A model generated the notes under the pieces. That model worked only from the letters and a program-made list of their open reading frames with translations, searched no databases and was not told the origin of the DNA. From Vibrio artabrorum (GTDB lineage: Bacteria; Pseudomonadota; Gammaproteobacteria; Enterobacterales; Vibrionaceae), in the NCBI RefSeq assembly GCF_024347295.1, contig NZ_AP025458.1, positions 992,001 through 1,056,000 on the forward strand: a stretch of 64,000 bases of DNA. Direction: 5' to 3'. Position 1 is the stretch's first letter; every line of letters starts with the position of its first letter. The position numbers and the translations under genes are program-made. This document shows, in pieces, positions 1 to 15,516 of the stretch.

Positions 1-1
1 A

Positions 2-451
2 ACAGGTTACGCTCCCAAAGCAAAGGCAACTACGCAGTGCCCAACTGATGCCAAGGGTCTCTTCAATCAACGTCGACGTTGGGCACGTGGCCGAGTAGAA
101 GCTTATACTGAAGCTTGGAAGACACATTGGGTAGCGGGCTTGTGTGCATCTCCTTGGTTTCTATTAACAGCAGCACAATACATATTTCCATCAAGCATTA
201 TTTTACTTGGGTTTATGGTTGTAATGGGAATTTGGATTCCAATCTTGATCGGCGGTGCCAATATAATTATCTACTTCTTGCTAGTGAAGTCATATATAAG
301 AGATTTTGATTTGTCTAATGACTTGTCAAATAACCAGGTGTTCAAAGCACCAATATATTCAGCATTATTGGAGTCTATTACATGGCTACCAAACTTACTT
401 GGATATTCTGATGAACTTCTGGGTAAGAAAAAAGGATGGTTAACAAGATAG
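2..451 (+). CDS. Membrane glycosyltransferase family 2, 3' end only
   Basis: An open frame enters from the window edge and ends at 451, giving about 149 visible residues. It carries Q-R-R-R-W-A-R-G near its start, the QxxRW motif that closes the catalytic domain of processive or membrane-anchored GT2 enzymes (cellulose synthase, hyaluronan synthase and relatives). Hydrophobic segments follow (around FLLTAAQYIFPSS and IILLGFMVVMGIWIPILI), as expected for the C-terminal membrane region. The N-terminal DxD and TED motifs lie outside the window, so donor and acceptor are unknown. It is on the same strand as the peptide gene, 52 bases upstream of it, and may be its operon partner. Family call is good; a role in peptide glycosylation is inference only. 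Confidence 0.75.
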   Translation, partial: TGYAPKAKATTQCPTDAKGLFNQRRRWARGRVEAYTEAWKTHWVAGLCASPWFLLTAAQYIFPSSIILLGFMVVMGIWIPILIGGANIIIYFLLVKSYIRDFDLSNDLSNNQVFKAPIYSALLESITWLPNLLGYSDELLGKKKGWLTR

Positions 452-503: not shown

Positions 504-761
504 ATGTACAATTTGAATGCCGAAGAAATCATGATGGTTGATGGCGGTGGGGATGGTGCTGCTCTTATAGGTCCAGCTGTTCGTGGAATTGCCAAGTGGG
601 CTGCTGGAGGGATGGCATGGGAGGTTGCAACAAACCCAGGTAGTCAGGGTTTCAATAACGGTACACAAAATATCAGTGGCAATGGATATATGGGAAATGG
701 TTTGCAAACGGGGGGAGGGATGGCAGGTTCACCTACTGGTGGCCAAGGTTACGGTTATTAA
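504..761 (+). CDS. Microcin-like RiPP precursor with double-glycine leader
   Basis: An 85-residue peptide with a clear AAGGA ribosome site at about 491-495. The first 15 residues (MYNLNAEEIMMVDGG) match the class II microcin/bacteriocin leader pattern: a hydrophobic residue, Glu, then V-D/S-G-G. A C39 peptidase would cut after Gly15 or Gly16. The core of about 70 residues has an amphipathic Ala/Gly stretch (AALIGPAVRGIAKWAAGGMAWEV) and then a Gly/Asn/Gln-rich tail ending in GQGYGY. It has no Cys, so thioether or disulfide chemistry is excluded. A radical SAM enzyme and a C39 exporter downstream support a modified, exported peptide. The sequence matches no named microcin I recognise. Activity is inferred. 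Confidence 0.8.
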   Translation: MYNLNAEEIMMVDGGGDGAALIGPAVRGIAKWAAGGMAWEVATNPGSQGFNNGTQNISGNGYMGNGLQTGGGMAGSPTGGQGYGY

Positions 762-775
762 ATAATTAGTAAATT

Positions 776-806
776 AAAGATAGGAAGCTCTGCGCTTCTT
801 ATCTTT
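776..806 (+). terminator. Intercistronic hairpin after the precursor gene
   Basis: AAAGATAGGAAG (776-787) pairs with CTTCTTATCTTT (795-806) as a 12-bp stem with one G-U wobble and a 7-base loop. Only a short T run follows. This fits a leaky terminator or mRNA-stabilising stem, which would let precursor RNA exceed that of the enzymes downstream, as is common in RiPP operons. Confidence 0.6.
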
Positions 807-817
807 TAGGACGTTTT

Positions 818-1309
818 ATGTTAAATATAATTCAACCTTATAATTCAAAATTTTCTTATATAGCTAAGGCTTCGCTATTAGCGATTGTTTTAACTTATAT
901 TAATGGATATGTATTAATGCATGGTTTTATTGGTGATGAATTAATGAATGTTACCAATGTTCCTGTGAAAGAGATTTCTTTTTTCTCCATATTAGGTTTG
1001 GTGATTTTTTCTCCAATAGTCGAAACGTGTCTAGTGTTTATATGTTTTTCTATTTTAAATTTAATACCAATTATAAACAGCTCAGTACGTGCCATAATAT
1101 GTACGCTCGCCATGTCTTTCCTTCATCATTTAACAATTGATTATTGGGGTTTTTTTGTTGTCCCTGTATTTTATATTATGAGTGTTTCTTATCAACATTG
1201 GGCAGTCAGTTCGGTCGATGACGCACTAGAGGTATGTCTTATAATTCATGCACTATATAACCTTTCAATATTGGTTATTATATTTATTAGTGATTTTGTT
1301 CTTAATTGA
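818..1309 (+). CDS. CPBP-like membrane protein, putative immunity protein
   Basis: A very AT-rich gene for a 163-residue protein with about four or five membrane segments. It shows degenerate CPBP (Abi, Rce1-like) motifs: SPIVET around Glu69 in place of the usual E-E pair, SFLHH around His103-104, and HALYN (His144 to Asn148) as the HxxxN motif. CPBP proteins next to bacteriocin genes often act as self-immunity proteins, and some are intramembrane proteases. The ribosome site is TAGGAC at about 806-811. Its place directly behind the precursor and the intercistronic stem supports an immunity role, or leader/core processing. The single Glu leaves protease activity open. It could also be an unrelated small membrane protein. 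Confidence 0.6.
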   Translation: MLNIIQPYNSKFSYIAKASLLAIVLTYINGYVLMHGFIGDELMNVTNVPVKEISFFSILGLVIFSPIVETCLVFICFSILNLIPIINSSVRAIICTLAMSFLHHLTIDYWGFFVVPVFYIMSVSYQHWAVSSVDDALEVCLIIHALYNLSILVIIFISDFVLN

Positions 1310-1370
1310 GCATTAATTTGACCATCAAGGTGCCTGTCATAACTGTATGGATTATTAAGTGGTGAACATA

Positions 1371-2360
1371 ATGAAAATTAAAAGAATTGAAAGTTTTAAT
1401 GATTTTTTGTCAGTTAATTGGGCTTTGATGAATAATTGTAATTATAAATGTAATTACTGCCATTCTGACCTCAATAGTGGAACAATTAAATCGCCATCAT
1501 ATGAAGTTGTAATTAAATTTGTAGAGAAATTAATAGAGCGAGCAAGATTGCAAGGAATTCGACCGTACTTTGAATTTGGAGGTGGTGAAGTTACGTTACT
1601 TAGATATTTTAGTAAACTCATCAGCTATATTTATGAAAATGGCGGATTAGTCACGACAGTTTCTAATGGGTCAAAGCCACTAATATGGTGGCAAAAGCAC
1701 GCTCAATACTTGAACGGTGTAAGCCTCAGTTATCATATTAATGATCTTAAAAGTGAGTTTCATTTTATTGAGGTATCCAAAGTCCTTGAGGCTTCTCAAG
1801 CTACTCGTTTTCACGTCAACATTATGATGGTTCCTGATCGGTTTGATGATTGCTTAGCGTTTGCAAACAGGCTAAAACAGGAGGTCCGTTGCTCTATTGC
1901 TCTTCAGCCACTTTTTGAAGGTTTTGGGCATGGTGGAATTACCAAGAAATATCCGTATACGCCTGAACAAGAGCAAGTTATGAAAGACTTTCGCGGCCGA
2001 CCAGAGCTTAAAACACTTCCGCCATCAATGGCTGAATTAGAAGTGCATTATGTTGATGGTACAACCAAAAATCTGTCTACTTTTGATTTAATCGCCAATG
2101 ATCAAACAAATTTTATTGGCTGGGACTGTTACGCTGGTATTGATAGTTTAGTTGTTACATTCAGTGGCGACATCTACCGTTCTTGGTGTATGCAGGATGG
2201 CCCGATTGGCTCCATCTATGACGAAAACATTGAACTTCCTACTAAACCCACTAAATGCAGGACTAAAATTTGCCAATGCGGTGTTGATTTGTCAGCAAAA
2301 AAAGTGAATACAAAGTTGATTTCAAATAAACAACAAGAAATTGCAGTGACTCAGCTCTAG
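1371..2360 (+). CDS. Radical SAM peptide-modifying enzyme with C-terminal Cys cluster
   Basis: A 329-residue protein. Cys23, Cys27 and Cys30 form CxxxCxxC for the SAM-binding 4Fe-4S cluster. FEFGGGEVT near residue 67 is the GGE motif that contacts SAM. The C-terminal region has Cys253, Cys273, Cys296, Cys301 and Cys303 in an arrangement like a SPASM or Twitch domain, which binds an auxiliary cluster in RiPP maturases. I saw no clear RiPP recognition domain, so leader binding is unassigned. ATG at 1371 is preferred over the in-frame GTG at 1359 because conserved sequence begins after it. The likely substrate is the peptide encoded at 504-761; epimerisation or C-C crosslinking are possible, and a Cys-based sactionine is not. 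Confidence 0.8.
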   Translation: MKIKRIESFNDFLSVNWALMNNCNYKCNYCHSDLNSGTIKSPSYEVVIKFVEKLIERARLQGIRPYFEFGGGEVTLLRYFSKLISYIYENGGLVTTVSNGSKPLIWWQKHAQYLNGVSLSYHINDLKSEFHFIEVSKVLEASQATRFHVNIMMVPDRFDDCLAFANRLKQEVRCSIALQPLFEGFGHGGITKKYPYTPEQEQVMKDFRGRPELKTLPPSMAELEVHYVDGTTKNLSTFDLIANDQTNFIGWDCYAGIDSLVVTFSGDIYRSWCMQDGPIGSIYDENIELPTKPTKCRTKICQCGVDLSAKKVNTKLISNKQQEIAVTQL

Positions 2361-2387
2361 TCTGTTTGTTTAGGGAAAGGATGACCC

Positions 2388-3674
2388 GTGGTAGCAAGAG
2401 CCAAACATTTATATCGGCCAGAGTATTTCGAGGCGCAGAAATCAGACCATCAAGGATCTATTTTGATTGATGCATCATTGAATCAGTACCTATTCGCAGG
2501 TGCATCTGTGTTCGTTTTGATGACTATTATCTTTTTCGTTGTTTTTGCCGAGTACACCCGTAGAGATACTCTAAACGGTGTGGTTAGTCCGACAGGGGGC
2601 ATTGTCAAAGTGCAGGCAAATGATGAAGGATACGCCGAAAAAGTCTTTGTAAGTGAAGGTCAAAAGATACTCGCTGGTGAACCGTTGTATGAGATAAAAA
2701 CTGAGCGATATGATGAGTTTGGTCAAGGTGTTAAACAGCGAATTGTCTCCACGATTGAAAATCAAATTGCTTTGTTAAATGAACGCCGAAATAAAGAAGT
2801 AGAAAAGTCGCAACACCAGCGAGAGGTTATCGATGATGACCTGATACTTTTATCTGAAGAGGCAGGCATTCTCAACGTAGTCGTTGATCTATCTGAACAG
2901 GAGTTAAGCCTTGCTCAAAGTTTGGTTGATAAACAGCAAGTGTTGGTTAACAAGCAGTTCATCTCTGCCATCGAACTTCAAAGGCAAAAGCTTGAGCTAA
3001 TTACGCTAGAAGCTAAGGTGCAAACCCAGCGGCTAAGTCTACAGCGATTAGTGAGAGAACAAGCCAAACTCGAAGAAACTAAAAGCACGCTCCAGCTAGA
3101 GCTCGACATTACCCTGCAAGAAATTGATCGCCAGCTTCAGCAAATTGCTCAAAACAAAATTGAATACTTTTACCAAACGGATACCCAGATAGTATCGCCG
3201 ATTAACGGTGTGGTTGCGTCAATTTTCGTTAAGGAAGGTCATTCAGTTAACACAGGTCAACCGCTTCTTGTTGTTATCCCAGAGGGAGAAGAGCCAGTTG
3301 TTGTTGAGTTGTACGCACCGAGTCGCAGCATAGGTTTTATTCAAGAAGGCCAAGATGTCCGCTTGCGGTTCGATGCGTTCCCTTATGAAAAGTTTGGCGT
3401 ACAACAAGGTGTTATCTCATCGATATCAAAATCTGCTGTCACCGCTGAGATGCTGCCCAATAGCCCATTGATACAAAGCCAGCTTTCGCGCACTTATGGT
3501 GGCGTTGGTTTGTACCAAGTGAGAGTAAAACTCGATAAACCGACTATTACGGTTTATGGGGAGGAGCAAATGTTTGTGCCTGGAATGACATTGACCGCAG
3601 ATATTGAACTGGACACACGTAAGGTATACGAGTGGCTGTTAGAGCCTTTGTATACCATCAAGGGGCGAATGTAA
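2388..3674 (+). CDS. HlyD-family periplasmic adaptor of a peptide exporter
   Basis: A 428-residue membrane fusion protein. One membrane helix lies at about residues 30-52 (LFAGASVFVLMTIIFFVVF). It is followed by a biotinyl-lipoyl-like half, a long coiled coil of about 130 residues rich in Glu, Gln and Leu, the second lipoyl half (IVSPINGVVASIFVKEGHSV) and a C-terminal beta domain. This is the CvaA/HlyD architecture that links an inner-membrane ABC exporter to TolC. The start is GTG at 2388, seven bases after AAAGGA. Two bases separate it from the C39 transporter gene, so they are almost certainly co-transcribed. No TolC-type gene is in the window, so a housekeeping TolC is presumably used. 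Confidence 0.9.
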   Translation: MVARAKHLYRPEYFEAQKSDHQGSILIDASLNQYLFAGASVFVLMTIIFFVVFAEYTRRDTLNGVVSPTGGIVKVQANDEGYAEKVFVSEGQKILAGEPLYEIKTERYDEFGQGVKQRIVSTIENQIALLNERRNKEVEKSQHQREVIDDDLILLSEEAGILNVVVDLSEQELSLAQSLVDKQQVLVNKQFISAIELQRQKLELITLEAKVQTQRLSLQRLVREQAKLEETKSTLQLELDITLQEIDRQLQQIAQNKIEYFYQTDTQIVSPINGVVASIFVKEGHSVNTGQPLLVVIPEGEEPVVVELYAPSRSIGFIQEGQDVRLRFDAFPYEKFGVQQGVISSISKSAVTAEMLPNSPLIQSQLSRTYGGVGLYQVRVKLDKPTITVYGEEQMFVPGMTLTADIELDTRKVYEWLLEPLYTIKGRM

Positions 3675-3676
3675 TC

Positions 3677-5821
3677 ATGCATGCAGAAGGGTTGATAGAC
3701 TGGGGGTGGGGAAAGAAGCTCCCTTTAATCCGACAAACAGAAAAGGCGGAATGTGGTATTGCATGCCTCGCGATGGTTGCTGATTGGCATGGTTATAAAA
3801 CTGATTTGCGATCGCTAAGGGCAAAATGCGGTATTACCCAGCATGGGATTTCATTTACGCGGCTCATTGAGTGCAGTGCACTTATTAAGCTTTCAGGTCG
3901 CGCGGTACGTTTAGATCTACATGAGTTGGAGCAATTAGCAACACCTTGCATTTTACATTGGAATCTCAATCATTTCGTTGTGTTAAAAAAAGCGAGTGGC
4001 AAGAAAATTGAAATTCACGATCCAGCCAACGGTGCATTGACACTGAGTCATGATGAGGTCAATAAGCATTTCACAGGCATCGCGCTTGAACTAACACCGA
4101 CCCACGACTTTGAGGAAAAAGTTGAAAGCAAAGCGGTTAGGCTATCAACTCTAATTGGTAAAACCGTTGGCCTTAAAGGAGCACTAGGTCGAATCTTTGT
4201 GTTCGCATTGGTTTTAGAGGTGTTAGCCCTTACTTTGCCGATCTTTAACCAAATTGTGATTGATGAAGTGTTGGTTGGGTATGACAAAAATCTTCTTGTA
4301 CTTGTCATTGGAGCCATACTTATGGTTACCGCGACGCAAACCTTAATCGGCCTTGCTCAGCAATGGGCGACAATCAAGCTATCCGTGAATTTCAACATGC
4401 AGTGGGCGGCAAATGTTTTCCATCATTTGTTTCGATTACCTATAGATTGGTTTGAAAAACGGGATATCGGGAGCATTAGTGCTAAATTCTCAGCTGTGGA
4501 TGTTATTCAACAAACGTTAACGACTAGCGCTATTCAGGCCCTACTCGATTTAGTGTTAGTAGTTGGTACACTGTCGGTTATGTTGGTTTACAGTCCTCAG
4601 CTGTCCTTCATAGCGATCGCTGCAGCGGTAGGCTACATCGCTTTAAGGTTCGCGTGGTTTGGTGCCTTTAAACGCGCAGAGGAAAATACTTGGGAAGCTA
4701 GCACTCAAGAAGAAAGCTACTTCATAGAGACAGTTCGAGGAGTATTGAGCTTAAGAGTTAACGGGACGCTACCATGGCGTGAGTCTTCTTGGCGAAATCT
4801 CAATATCAATCGCAGAAACGCCCAGCTACACGAGCAAAAGCTTGGAATGATCTACAATACAATGAATGTAACGATTGTTAGTCTTGTTTCCGCGACGGTT
4901 CTCTGGTTTGGCGCAAACTTAGTATTGGACGGACTTTTTACCATCGGTATGCTCATGGCTTTCCTTTCATATCAAGGTCGATTCTCTGCCAGTATTAGTT
5001 CACTAATCGATAAGTACTTCGAGTTTAAGATGTTATCGGTGTACAACGAACGTTTAGCGGATATCGTCTTAACTGAGAAAGAAATAGAAAGTGTTCCTGA
5101 TACCTTGGGGTTGCCCGTTGTAACCAATAATCCAAGCGATACAGTTATCGAGTTTGACAACGTTTTATTCTCTTACGGGAAAGATCAGCCTCCAATTCTT
5201 AACGGTGCCAGTTTCAGTGTAAAAAGTAATGAGATTGTTGCGTTAGTTGGGCCGTCTGGTTGTGGTAAGTCAACAATATCTAAACTGTTATTGGGTATTT
5301 ATTCGGTTACGTCGGGTAGCATTAATTATTTTGGTAATAAGTCGACAGCCTCTAAATCTCTAAGAACTCAAGTCGGTGCGGTATTGCAAGAAGACCAACT
5401 GTTTAGCGGTTCAATTATCGAAAATATCACTTTCTTCGCTGGCGATTTAGATGAAGAGTGGCTAGTCGAGTGTGCCCGCAGGGCTGGTGTTCATGATGAC
5501 ATTGAACGTCTCAATATGGGCTACCACACTCTGGTTGGAGAGATGGGGTCTAGCCTTTCAGGAGGCCAAAAACAAAGAATTCTCATTGCGAGAGCGCTGT
5601 ATAAAAAACCTAAATTTCTAGTATTGGACGAGGCAACGAGTAGCTTAGATATCTACACGGAGTCGTTTGTTTGTCAGATGTTTAAAGAGATCAATATCCC
5701 TATTTTAATGATTGCTCACCGTCCAGAGACGATAGCATCGGCTGATCGAGTACTACTCATGGAAGGTGGTCTAGTTCAGGAAATCCCAAATAACTTTAAG
5801 CAGGAAGCTCAAGATGTATAA
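3677..5821 (+). CDS. C39-peptidase ABC exporter (CvaB/RaxB type)
   Basis: A 714-residue bifunctional transporter. The N-terminal C39 protease has [14 protein letters not shown] with Cys26 as nucleophile, [10 protein letters not shown] with the catalytic His, and HDPANG with the Asp. Then come about six membrane helices and a nucleotide-binding domain with Walker [10 protein letters not shown], signature LSGGQKQR and Walker [13 protein letters not shown]. It should cleave a double-glycine leader and export the core, which fits the leader at 504-761. ATG at 3677 with AGGGG upstream is preferred to the in-frame GTG at 3632, because C39 proteins start close to the Q-x-E-x-x-E-C-G motif. All catalytic residues are intact. 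Confidence 0.92.
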
Positions 5822-6452
5822 CCACGAAAGAATACTCTGTCCAGATAATCATTCGGCGTTATCTGAAGTTGAATTAATGGAACAATATGGTAAGTATTTT
5901 GGCTCGGATAATTGGGTAACATTTTCTGGGTGCCCTTCGATAACATTGACTAAAGTCGGCTTAAATGAATTCGAAGGTTTGCCAAGTGGTAGTGAAGTAA
6001 TCTCAATTGGTTCTGGATGTTACATAGAATCATCTCATTTTCCGGCCTTTCCTTCTGGTGTCACCAAACTGACAAGTGTTTCTGTAAACAACAGGCCATT
6101 TGGCAAAATAGTCATTGGCACAGGATGTGTACTCCAAGGTACTTCTATCTGTGCTTACGACAAAGTTTCAATAGGAAACAATGTGATTTTTGGCCCTAAT
6201 ACCGTGATTATGGACTGTAGCGGCCATGCTCTTTCAAAGCGAGGTCATCCGGATGAACTTAATGAGCTTAAAGCAGAGCCAGTCACCATTGGCAATGACG
6301 TTTGGATCGGTTACGGGTGCATTGTTCTTCCTGGGGTGAAGATTGGTGACGGTGCGGTTATTGGAGCAGGTAGCGTTGTGACGAAAGACATTCCAGCCAA
6401 CTGCATGGCTGCTGGCAACCCATGCACTGTTAAAAAAATAGAATTAAACTAA
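5814..6452 (+). CDS. Hexapeptide-repeat O-acyltransferase
   Basis: A 212-residue protein of the left-handed beta-helix acyltransferase class. Its C-terminal half has repeated [LIV]-G-x-x-x-x turns, for example [19 protein letters not shown] and [17 protein letters not shown], with the closing A-A-G-N-P signature. The family transfers acetyl from acetyl-CoA to sugar or antibiotic hydroxyls. The start codon overlaps the ABC exporter stop by 8 bases, implying translational coupling. In this setting it may acylate the peptide or a sugar attached to it, working with the upstream glycosyltransferase, or it may inactivate the product inside the cell. The substrate is not visible from sequence. Confidence 0.8.
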
Positions 6453-6472
6453 TAGAAAATGGAGCTCAGAAA

Positions 6473-7171
6473 ATGAGGTTAGTTTCCCTCTCGATATTAT
6501 CACTAGCATTGTTGTCGGGTTGTAGCAGTACCCCAATTATTTTCATGCCCGAGCACAATGTGACGGTTTCTGGAACGACGCTTGTTTTTGACGGTCCCAT
6601 ATCTGGCAATAGCGTTTTGGAAGCATTAAGAGTTGTTCGAAACTCTGGTGTAGAGATTGAAAAGCTTAGAATAACTAGCCCTGGCGGTGATGTGCCTTCG
6701 GGTATCGAACTTGGGTATTTCATCAAAGAAAATAATTTGAACGTTGAAGTTGATAAACTTTGTTTTTCTGCATGTGCAAATTATGTCATTCCAGCTGCAA
6801 AAACTGTCATAATTAAAGAAGGCTCTCTTATTGGTTGGCACGGAGGGCCAAGACAGTCAGATGAGCTTTGGTATGCTTCGTCACCCTCTAGTAATAAAGA
6901 AGAGTTAATAAAGTTTATATCTCGGCTACGCGAAAAAGAAGATGCATTTTTCGAGTACATTAATGTTGACCCAGACATCACAGTCTATGGTCAAACTAGT
7001 TCAGAAAAATGTCAACTAACAAAGGAAACGCACGGGTGGTACTACTCAATAAGAGATTTGGCTAAAATGGGTGTTCCTAACGTAGTTATAAATGGTGAGC
7101 TAGCCTCTTCGATTGAATATCAAGGTGATACAATTAATGCTTGTTTGATGCCAGAACTCAAAGGCATATGA
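6473..7171 (+). CDS. ClpP-like serine protease lipoprotein (COG3904 type)
   Basis: A 232-residue lipoprotein. The signal peptide ends in the lipobox L-S-G-C with Cys17 as the lipidated residue. The mature part resembles the periplasmic ClpP/crotonase-fold group: ITSPGGDVPSGIEL is the oxyanion-loop and strand region, CFSACAN carries the probable nucleophile Ser99, and GWHGGP carries His123. Cys97 and Cys101 flank Ser99. It begins 20 bases after the acyltransferase gene and is last in the cassette. A protease here could trim the exported peptide, act as immunity, or cut a partner. The DNA just downstream is IS debris, so the original cassette end may be lost. Confidence 0.65.
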   Translation: MRLVSLSILSLALLSGCSSTPIIFMPEHNVTVSGTTLVFDGPISGNSVLEALRVVRNSGVEIEKLRITSPGGDVPSGIELGYFIKENNLNVEVDKLCFSACANYVIPAAKTVIIKEGSLIGWHGGPRQSDELWYASSPSSNKEELIKFISRLREKEDAFFEYINVDPDITVYGQTSSEKCQLTKETHGWYYSIRDLAKMGVPNVVINGELASSIEYQGDTINACLMPELKGI

Positions 7172-7230
7172 AATGTAAAAACTCTGTGATTAACCATTGT
7201 TAGCGCTTGTTTAAAATGGTCCTGTCTATC

Positions 7231-7763
<533 letters not shown>

Positions 7764-11928: not shown

Positions 11929-13047
11929 ATGAAAAATACACTAAAAATGTCGCTCGCTGCGGCTTCAGTAATGGCTGCAATGACAGCGAACGCTGGAATC
12001 AGCATTGTTGATAACGAAAAAGGTAACTTCTTTGTCGGCGGCAATGTGGAGTTGAACTTCAATTTTCAAGATCGTGAGTCTAACCGAGATGGCGATAATG
12101 AATTTAACCAAGATGGTCGCGTATTGATTGAATTCGCAGGAGAAAAATATACCAGCAATGATCATTATGTTGGTGTAAAAGCACAACCGCTATTTACAAC
12201 CACCGGTGACGTAGTCCTGGATGATGCATATTTTGAGTTTGGTAAAAAGGAAAGTTGGGCAATAAAAGCTGGACGTTTTGAGGCTTACGATATGTTCCCT
12301 GTTGGGCTTGATGTATTCCTAGAATACTCAGGTGACACAGCTAACGACCTTTATTCAGACGGTGCAGCTTACACGTACCAAGCGAAAGAGGCGCGTGGTC
12401 GCGGCTCAGACGGCCAAATCATGTATAGCCAAACTTTTGGCAACTTGTATGTTGAAGTCGGCGCAATGCTAGGTGACCGCTCTAACTTGTTCGATGGCGG
12501 CATTGAAGGTAAATACCACAGCGAGCAAATTGACACAGTTAAAGATTCATTCCTAGTTCGCCCAGTTGTGGCTTACCAAATGGGTGACTTCAAGGTAGCC
12601 GCTTCGGTGGAAACCAACCTAGTTTCAGACGCGATTGTGGCGAACGGTGTTGATATCTCGGATCGAACAGGCTATGGCTTAACGGGTAACTGGTCCAGCG
12701 GTGATTGGAGTGTTAATACGAACGTTGCTTACATGGATGCTGTAGACGAAAACAACCTAACAGCCGGTGTTAATGCACTCTGGAATAACTTTGGCTTAGG
12801 CTACATTCACGCTAAAAATGAGTATGAAAACAAAGAGTTTTCTTCTTGGGCTGAAGGCGACGTAAACGTATCAACTTGGTATGCATCTTACGCATTCCGT
12901 GATGTACTTGAAGTACAAGATTTTTCAATCCTTCTAGGTACATACTACACGATGGTGGATAACAAACTGGACCAACAATCGGACGCATCAGCCTTTGCTG
13001 AAGAAAACGATTTCGGTGCTCGTGTACGTCTGTTCTACGAATTCTAA
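11929..13047 (+). CDS. Outer-membrane porin of the sucrose operon
   Basis: A 372-residue outer-membrane beta barrel. The signal peptide MKNTLKMSLAAASVMAAMTANA is cleaved before Gly-Ile. Alternating amphipathic strands run throughout, and the C-terminal aromatic strand ends ARVRLFYEF, as needed for BAM-dependent insertion. It lies between scrB and scrK, so it probably lets sucrose or related sugars cross the outer membrane, as ScrY does in enterobacteria. It lacks the N-terminal coiled-coil of ScrY and looks more like a Vibrio carbohydrate porin, so I do not use that symbol. Confidence 0.8.
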   Translation: MKNTLKMSLAAASVMAAMTANAGISIVDNEKGNFFVGGNVELNFNFQDRESNRDGDNEFNQDGRVLIEFAGEKYTSNDHYVGVKAQPLFTTTGDVVLDDAYFEFGKKESWAIKAGRFEAYDMFPVGLDVFLEYSGDTANDLYSDGAAYTYQAKEARGRGSDGQIMYSQTFGNLYVEVGAMLGDRSNLFDGGIEGKYHSEQIDTVKDSFLVRPVVAYQMGDFKVAASVETNLVSDAIVANGVDISDRTGYGLTGNWSSGDWSVNTNVAYMDAVDENNLTAGVNALWNNFGLGYIHAKNEYENKEFSSWAEGDVNVSTWYASYAFRDVLEVQDFSILLGTYYTMVDNKLDQQSDASAFAEENDFGARVRLFYEF

Positions 13048-14682: not shown

Positions 14683-15516
14683 ATGGAGAATAAGAAACGT
14701 TCTAAAGAAAAGGCCGAGTATAAGATAACGGAAGAGCTCGGTGGCCTTGAAATTCTTGATGCTGAATACGAAAAGCAGAACTTCTCGCGTCACAGCCACG
14801 AGGGCTACACGCTAGGAGTCATCGAGCAGGGCGCTCAGCGTTTCTATCGAACGGGTGGGCATCATATTGCGCCACAAAATGCGATTATTCTGGTCAATGC
14901 CGACGAAGTTCATAGCGGTCACTCTGCCACTGAAGGCGGTTGGGCGTATCGAGCCATGTATCCACTCCCAGAGCAACTTGCCAAGATCACTCAAGAGCTA
15001 AACCTACCGAATTACGGCGCGCCTTATTTCCCAAGAGCGGTTGTTGAAGACCCTGAACTCGCCAATCAATTGAGATTAGTCTTCAACACAATTGATGAAT
15101 CTGCCAATCGCTTGTTAAGAGAAACTTTGATGTATGGGATGTTGGTTAAGCTGATTAGTCGACACGGAAAATCGCCGCTTAATCCTCAACTCGATGGGAA
15201 AACTCAGCGCCAACTTGTTTTGGTGAAAGAGTTTTTAGATGATTTTCCACAAGCCGATGTGTCCTTAGACGAGCTATCCAGCCTAGCGGCTTTGAGCCCG
15301 TTCCACTTAGTGCGTTCTTTTCAGAAAGAGTTCGGCCTTCCACCTCATGCCTATCAGATTCAATCACGGCTAAGACTTGCTCGTAAGCTATTGAATCAAG
15401 GACATACTATTTCAGATGCCGCTCAAGAGTGTGGTTTTCATGATCAAAGCCATTTTCATCGACACTTCAAAAAGGCCAATGGCTATACGCCGGGGCAATA
15501 CATCAAAATGCTCTAA
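14683..15516 (+). CDS. AraC-family regulator with cupin sensor domain
   Basis: A 277-residue regulator. The N-terminal AraC-binding cupin (SRHSHEGYTLGVIEQG, then HHIAPQNAIILVNADEVHS) would bind a small ligand. The C-terminal pair of helix-turn-helix motifs starts at about residue 185 (LDELSSLAALSPFHLVRSF and ISDAAQECGFHDQSHFHRHF, with the P-x-x-Y segment GYTPGQY). ATG at 14683 is used; a TTG lies four codons upstream. It is just ahead of azlCD on the same strand, an arrangement common in Vibrio, so it probably activates that exporter. Confidence 0.85.
   Translation: MENKKRSKEKAEYKITEELGGLEILDAEYEKQNFSRHSHEGYTLGVIEQGAQRFYRTGGHHIAPQNAIILVNADEVHSGHSATEGGWAYRAMYPLPEQLAKITQELNLPNYGAPYFPRAVVEDPELANQLRLVFNTIDESANRLLRETLMYGMLVKLISRHGKSPLNPQLDGKTQRQLVLVKEFLDDFPQADVSLDELSSLAALSPFHLVRSFQKEFGLPPHAYQIQSRLRLARKLLNQGHTISDAAQECGFHDQSHFHRHFKKANGYTPGQYIKML

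Follow-up and report, generated by a model that had tools for sequence, protein, structure and literature searches.

A microcin-type gene cluster of Vibrio artabrorum combines an MchC/MchD-type pair with glycosyltransferase and radical SAM genes

Class IIb siderophore microcins such as MccH47 (mch) and MccE492 (mce) are encoded by a double-glycine (GG) precursor and an immunity gene together with a C39-peptidase ATP-binding cassette (ABC) exporter, an HlyD adaptor and the protein pair MchC/MchD (MceJ/MceI). According to passages of two published accounts, this pair joins enterobactin to the microcins (PMC3281104, PMC7472721); the first treats MchC and MceJ as distant homologues of SelO, each with an HlyC-like partner (MchD or MceI), and notes that two V. 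cholerae strains have homologues of mchC, and the second ascribes to MceIJ/MchCD the joining of siderophore to precursor, their exact function being reported as unknown. Passages of PMC6071977 describe MceC, MceI and MceJ, and passages of PMC10233263 the class IIb C-terminal motif. Excerpts of PMC4462113 describe a bacteriocin locus on plasmid pAWOD920 of Aliivibrio wodanis (record L103) with RTX-acyltransferase-like and MchC-like proteins, a GG precursor, HlyD and a C39 exporter; inhibition is reported there at strain level, and the excerpts contain no mutation tying it to the locus. Excerpts of PMC13101503 describe class II microcins of Serratia marcescens SM39 that lack the canonical class IIb tail and have MchC, a toxin-activating lysine-acyltransferase and non-ribosomal peptide synthetase/adenylation genes nearby. 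The cinful survey found microcin matches in 2.8% of the Vibrionaceae species sampled (PMC9746304).

Here we analyse a cluster in a 64,000-nucleotide stretch of the Vibrio artabrorum genome (the window, G000:C1:992001-1056000; genome 4.44 Mb, two contigs), for which an original prediction from the window's letters had proposed an undescribed, radical S-adenosylmethionine (SAM)-modified microcin locus at 504..7171. Its genes are real, and the cluster starts ~2.6 kb 5' of window base 1, where three extra same-strand genes precede the precursor. Because two of these encode an MchC/MchD-type pair, the locus is a relative of the class IIb siderophore microcins and is less isolated than had been supposed; the pair and most of the gene for a family 2 glycosyltransferase (GT2) had escaped the original prediction, being outside the window. 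By analogy, the cluster likely works like a siderophore microcin system, and GT2 and radical SAM genes in place of siderophore genes suggest that a different cargo is attached. We favour, at slightly better than an even chance, a class IIb-like microcin whose MchC/MchD-type pair joins the C-terminus to a sugar-containing moiety other than a siderophore, made with the help of the radical SAM enzyme.

The ten genes, in the order hlyC - selO - GT2 - precursor - membrane protein - radical SAM - hlyD - C39/ABC - hexapeptide transferase - ClpP-like, are listed below. Upstream positions refer to L046, the stretch read for upstream DNA, in which base 15001 is window base 1.

L046:12410-12910, + strand: HlyC-fold/MchD-type gene, 166 amino acids (aa); PF02794, 38.3 bits
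L046:12894-14264, + strand: SelO-like/MchC-type gene, 456 aa; PF02696, 28.8 bits (cut-off 22.8)
3' end at window 1..451, start 725 bases before the window, + strand: membrane GT2 glycosyltransferase, 391 aa; PF13632, 73.6 bits
504..761, + strand: precursor peptide, 85 aa; leader MYNLNAEEIMMVDGG, kept at the same place in relatives
818..1309, + strand: 163-aa membrane protein, CPBP/CAAX-like, probable immunity protein; position and alignment with a PF02517-matching protein of L012
1371..2360, + strand: radical SAM enzyme, 329 aa; PF04055, CxxxCxxC and five C-terminal Cys
2388..3674, + strand: HlyD-family periplasmic adaptor; PF13437, with TIGR01843 under its cut-off
3677..5821, + strand: C39-peptidase ABC exporter; PF03412, PF00664 and PF00005, motifs, and 36% BLASTP identity to MchF
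5814..6452, + strand: hexapeptide-repeat O-acyltransferase (accessory); PF00132
6473..7171, + strand: ClpP-like lipoprotein (accessory); lipobox LLSGC and a sub-threshold ClpP-type match

An MchC/MchD-type pair in a recurrent cluster

By sequence comparison with the annotated E. coli H47 locus (L129, source of the MchC, MchD and MchF sequences), the SelO-like and HlyC-fold proteins are homologues of MchC and MchD. The SelO-like protein matches MchC at 36% over 230 aa (132 bits; hhalign 99.9%), and the HlyC-fold protein matches MchD at 34% over 64 aa (41.6 bits; hhalign 98.4%); several of the 120 relatives of the SelO-like protein listed from the database carry the name MchC at source. Its score against the NCBIfam SelO equivalog is 18.8 bits (cut-off 900), and it is therefore not an orthologue of SelO; an ordinary SelO/YdiU is found elsewhere in the genome (507.1 bits), so the cluster copy represents a separate lineage. 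The SelO tree has very long branches and is unusable for rooting. The Lys, loop His/Asn and DFG motifs are invariant in 13 aligned cluster proteins; in a wider set, G254 carries DLG and G195 DFT. These proteins thus keep HxxxxxxN and DFG, whereas MchC of E. coli (L129:6653-8203) and of Pantoea (L106:9833-11398) lacks both motifs, the loop His and DFG Gly of the SelO active site being gone. At L014:3914-9957, a second SelO-like gene (31.97% to that of the window) is followed by another small open reading frame (ORF), and between GT2 and radical SAM genes there is a large ORF, presumably a GMC oxidoreductase.

Scanning genomes with the radical SAM protein yielded 15 loci (ten Vibrio, two Photobacterium, a Janthinobacterium metagenome-assembled genome (MAG), Chitiniphilus and one further proteobacterial MAG), the closest relatives being in named Vibrio. 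Other Vibrio, Photobacterium and betaproteobacteria repeat the gene order, with a GG- or GA-leader ORF at the same place, which goes beyond chance. HlyC-fold, SelO-like and GT2 genes are present in 14 of the 15 loci; the remaining one, L004, starts 448 bases ahead of its radical SAM gene, and a contig (G325) that, judging by coordinates, appears to belong to the same genome holds all three. HlyD and C39 genes are found in every locus (15/15), the hexapeptide transferase in 12/15 and the ClpP-like match in 5/15 (one weak), and these last two are accessory.

Of 329 Vibrionaceae genomes (E <= 1e-20), 30 carry the SelO-like family, and 21 of these 30, with no others, carry the radical SAM family (Fisher p = 2e-26, shared descent uncorrected). 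Among 394 genomes from the order, six carry the radical SAM family, all of the window's genus, and eight the SelO-like family, including those six. Twenty-six distinct radical SAM loci were assembled: the window's own, the 15 scan loci, G134, G304, G097, G072, G120, G215, G284, G294 and two plasmids. All six genes (hlyC, selO, GT2, radical SAM, hlyD and C39) are present in 25/26, some as broken pieces; in G097 no hlyD or C39 was seen within the 37 kb read. A GG- or GA-leader ORF lies within the cluster in 25/26, and in the 26th (G325) a precursor match lies close to the contig end (L125).

Taken together, these results leave the core of the original prediction standing: the precursor is of the microcin type and comes with a dedicated exporter, and the radical SAM enzyme is part of the locus. 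Two outcomes that it had named beforehand as grounds against itself did not appear: the GG leader is conserved among precursor relatives, and radical SAM homologues adjoin GG/GA precursors, recurrently in other Vibrio, and are not located away from them. In the titles, abstract starts and passages of open-access PMC literature searched, no description was found of a radical SAM or GT2 gene with the MchC/MchD pair; the isolation implied by the original prediction, which recognised the combination from no characterised system, gives way to the relationship with class IIb siderophore microcins. The A. wodanis locus differs in that the 19 kb read contain neither a GT2 nor a radical SAM match, and that of Serratia SM39 in its adenylation genes, where the Vibrio cluster has GT2 and radical SAM.

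Precursor peptides and siderophore features

The window precursor has a predicted core of 70 aa (6705.2 Da average if unmodified) and ends in Tyr. For comparison we used 37 precursors, of which 27 come from loci with the radical SAM gene and 10 from loci lacking it. L112 and L114, which duplicate L010 and L016, were left out, as were the further L012 GG-type ORFs 4866-5042 and 12319-12603, the first L014 ORF (3074-3211, no GG) and regex matches outside clusters. A precursor search of the protein database gave 7 matches among 9 candidates, the window's own included. The cores are strongly variable and rich in small residues, with Gly-rich tails. Since core identity and radical SAM identity disagree between pairs, precursors, on these comparisons, both move between cluster lineages and vary within them: L008 and L011 have 95% identical cores and 66% identical radical SAM enzymes, L002 and the second L009 precursor 88% and 77%, and, in the reverse case, the window and L003 30% and 80%. 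At L009:7977-9288 there are two tandem precursor/immunity cassettes, the second nearly that of L002 (core 88%, similar small membrane protein). A second precursor type (L117, L118, L126, L110, L111) has an MFEL... leader ending SGA and short, acidic or Pro-rich cores, several ending EEGRY(R); it is found with and without a radical SAM gene and is unlike class II microcins.

The cluster shares with class IIb microcins the double-glycine leader, the C39-ABC exporter with HlyD adaptor, and the MchC/MchD pair. Unlike MccH47 and MccE492, it has no IroB-type glucosyltransferase and no Gly/Ser tail ending in Ser. Searches for siderophore functions covered enterobactin-type catechol siderophores. Whole-genome searches (E <= 1e-5) for an MchA-type enterobactin glucosyltransferase gave no match in any of the 30 Vibrionaceae genomes that have the SelO-like gene, and the same query recovered a Pantoea match as positive control (9.9e-169). 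The one dihydroxybenzoate ligase model used (TIGR02275) gave at best 182.5 bits in the own genome (cut-off 723.55), and 2/14 control genomes scored above the cut-off. Only 2/37 precursors end in Ser, as a Gly/Ser-rich tail with linked Ser would; the H47 tail was seen in the L129 comparison. The cluster therefore departs from siderophore microcins in all three features, which led us to reject the siderophore version, and, with the siderophore genes tested absent, the conjugate would have to differ from a siderophore.

A siderophore microcin that borrows siderophore and glucosyltransferase from elsewhere in the genome is, on the same evidence, very improbable, even though its linking pair would be expected to be homologous to that of siderophore microcins, as it is, and E. 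coli Nissle takes IroB from another locus (a passage of PMC7472721). Nor did a crude 19-mer scan of 14 loci find a Fur-like site upstream of the own cluster that beats shuffled sequence: the best had 7 mismatches and was equalled by 57.5% of 40 shuffles, compared with 5% for L105 (borderline), 12.5% for L003 and L009, and 5 mismatches in the H47 control region.

The HlyC-fold protein has the fold of toxin-activating acyltransferases (TAAT) and its PF02794 match is above the cut-off, which would fit an enzyme that puts a fatty acid on a core Lys, giving a lipidated microcin, with the SelO-like protein AMPylating something else. We give this reading little credence. No Lys follows residue 15 in 13/37 precursors (7/27 among those from radical SAM loci), and on this ground Lys acylation was rejected as the general modification. 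The TAAT catalytic His column, read by eye in a low-scoring alignment (E 0.012), holds Arg in 11/13 proteins and His in 2/13, and the Asp is present in 0/13; the His/Asp dyad is taken from a passage of PMC8510554, according to which some activity remains when the His is missing.

Radical SAM enzyme, glycosyltransferase and their possible substrates

The PF04055 match of the radical SAM protein scores 31.9 bits (cut-off 29.5), and its C23/C27/C30 are invariant in 14 aligned proteins, as are the five Cys of the predicted C-terminal cluster (C253, C273, C296, C301 and C303). Such extra C-terminal Cys may point to a SPASM/twitch-like domain, though the Pfam search gave no SPASM match. Viperin-type and STM4011-type models matched 14/14 members, NrdG2 13 and MoaA-type 10. 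The nearest solved structures by sequence are viperin, tetraether lipid synthase and YydG; by Foldseek on the predicted model they are viperin, BlsE and EpeE. Mean pLDDT of that model is 59.6 and residues 235-329, the C-terminal Cys region, fall below 50, which makes the auxiliary domain uncertain and the Foldseek matches weak. Structure and model matches together are compatible with either a sugar/nucleotide or a peptide substrate. Because the cores are hypervariable and exchangeable, the gene stands beside GT2, and L115, without a radical SAM gene, has similar leaders and GDG starts, we lean weakly towards the sugar/small-molecule part as the likelier substrate. The gene is broken by transposase-bearing DNA in L015 (8421-10001), G304 (L107/L108) and G097 (L109), with neighbours that look whole, and is split over two frames in L016 and G215.

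In the GT2 protein, DSD, ED and QRRRW are invariant in 14 aligned sequences. Its best curated models, in 14/14 members, include poly-N-acetylglucosamine (poly-GlcNAc) synthase and NodC, all under cut-off. In mycofactocin biosynthesis, a radical SAM enzyme and a GT2 (MftF) serve one ribosomal-peptide product, a redox cofactor. The Vibrio cluster resembles that system in its radical SAM gene and in a GT2 with a sub-threshold MftF match (TIGR03965, 70.2 bits, cut-off 280); we know of no C39 exporter or MchC/MchD pair in mycofactocin systems. The hexapeptide transferase is closest, among NCBIfam models, to galactoside O-acetyltransferase (83.4 bits, cut-off 347).

Several observations weigh against a sugar-containing conjugate made in this way. 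GT2 matches to curated families are far under cut-off, its donor and acceptor are only putative, and the product of the cluster, its conjugate and the radical SAM substrate are predictions. Nine SelO-like genomes have no radical SAM gene; GT2 was matched in six of them (L115, L117, L118, L119, L120, L126) and was not seen in the stretches read of L116, L121 and G209 (read as plasmid record L103, whose coordinates are the same), so the pair does not in general require it. Most of the presence counts are drawn from a single bacterial family, and they cannot be treated as independent. The precursors share no fixed C-terminal residue (Y 9, R 8, F 7, N 4, L 2, S 2, and one each of I, C, A, T and H among the 37; Arg in G134, outside that set), and the joining site is therefore not visible from sequence. 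Peptide-maturase models (DarE, GeoRSP and ACGX) each matched 9/14 radical SAM members.

These maturase matches, with the peptide epimerase YydG/EpeE among the structural and profile matches, also speak for an enzyme that modifies the peptide core (epimer, crosslink or other), with the MchC/MchD-type pair adding a separate C-terminal conjugate. The radical SAM gene directly follows the precursor and immunity gene, and potential sites exist, Tyr being present in 36/37 cores and Ser in 37/37. We consider such core modification possible, if on balance doubtful: the cores share no widely common motif except GDG after the leader (24/29 GG-type precursors), that start also occurs in L115, the best matches remain the viperin- and STM4011-type models, and Pfam gave no RiPP (ribosomally synthesised and post-translationally modified peptide) recognition element-like domain, which is weak evidence. 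An isolated, unrelated RiPP locus is ruled out by the upstream MchC/MchD-type pair.

Within the window, all seven predicted ORFs are present on the + strand, with gaps of -8 to 61 bases (-17 to 61 over the ten genes); the radical SAM gene has an ATG start at 1371 and a possible alternative GTG at 1359. Pfam supports the labels radical SAM, HlyD, C39 with ABC, and hexapeptide transferase, and the exporter has, as claimed, intact C39 Cys/His/Asp motifs (ECGIACL, NHFVVL, HDPANG) as well as Walker A and the ABC signature. Two labels are less well supported. The 163-aa protein, called CPBP-like, has no Pfam match, yet aligns with the Janthinobacterium protein of L012 at the same position (six residues common to 5/5 rows); an immunity role is probable from its position. 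The ClpP-like lipoprotein has its lipobox, and its ClpP-type match is below threshold (25.8 bits, cut-off 120), with no Pfam match.

A TnsA-like endonuclease gene (PF08722, 29.8 bits) lies in the L046:10730-11806 region, ~3.2-4.3 kb before window base 1; the ORF that follows it, of 149 aa and without a family match, is possibly a truncated TnsB. These two genes, for which no match was seen in any other locus searched, mean that a Tn7-like element may have brought the cluster in. Downstream it is bounded by two - strand ORFs (window 7120-7757), presumably IS3-type transposase pieces, the second of which overlaps the end of the ClpP-like gene.

A possible route to a conjugated microcin

Under the favoured reading of a C-terminally conjugated microcin, a ribosomal precursor with the GG leader and variable, small-residue-rich core seen in the sequence would be the starting material. 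The membrane GT2 would build a sugar-containing moiety, in many loci aided by the hexapeptide acyltransferase, and the radical SAM enzyme would carry out one tailoring step. By analogy with MceIJ, the SelO-like MchC-type protein would activate the peptide C-terminal carboxylate using ATP, and the HlyC-fold MchD-type protein would transfer the activated peptide to a hydroxyl of the conjugate. The C39 exporter would cleave after GG and secrete the product with HlyD and TolC, as is established for these families. An outer-membrane receptor of related bacteria might then recognise the conjugate, with the small membrane protein giving immunity.

A more specific version, which we think unlikely, is a Trojan-horse microcin with a glycan in place of the siderophore: GT2 would make a short GlcNAc-type oligosaccharide that, decorated by the hexapeptide transferase and radical SAM enzyme, is joined to the C-terminus by the MchC/MchD-type pair and taken up through sugar/chito-oligosaccharide receptors of chitin-using competitors. 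The chitin-receptor idea comes wholly from the ecological link of Vibrio, Chitiniphilus and Janthinobacterium with chitin.

The Vibrio SelO-like proteins still have the kinase-type motifs that are gone from E. coli MchC and may, judging by those motifs, be a better system in which to study MceIJ/MchCD chemistry. If the conjugated-microcin reading is true, the enterobactin-linking pair would be a general, exchangeable ligation module that carries different cargoes in different bacteria, and not a siderophore speciality, and large peptide antibiotics could gain a second import route into Gram-negative cells.

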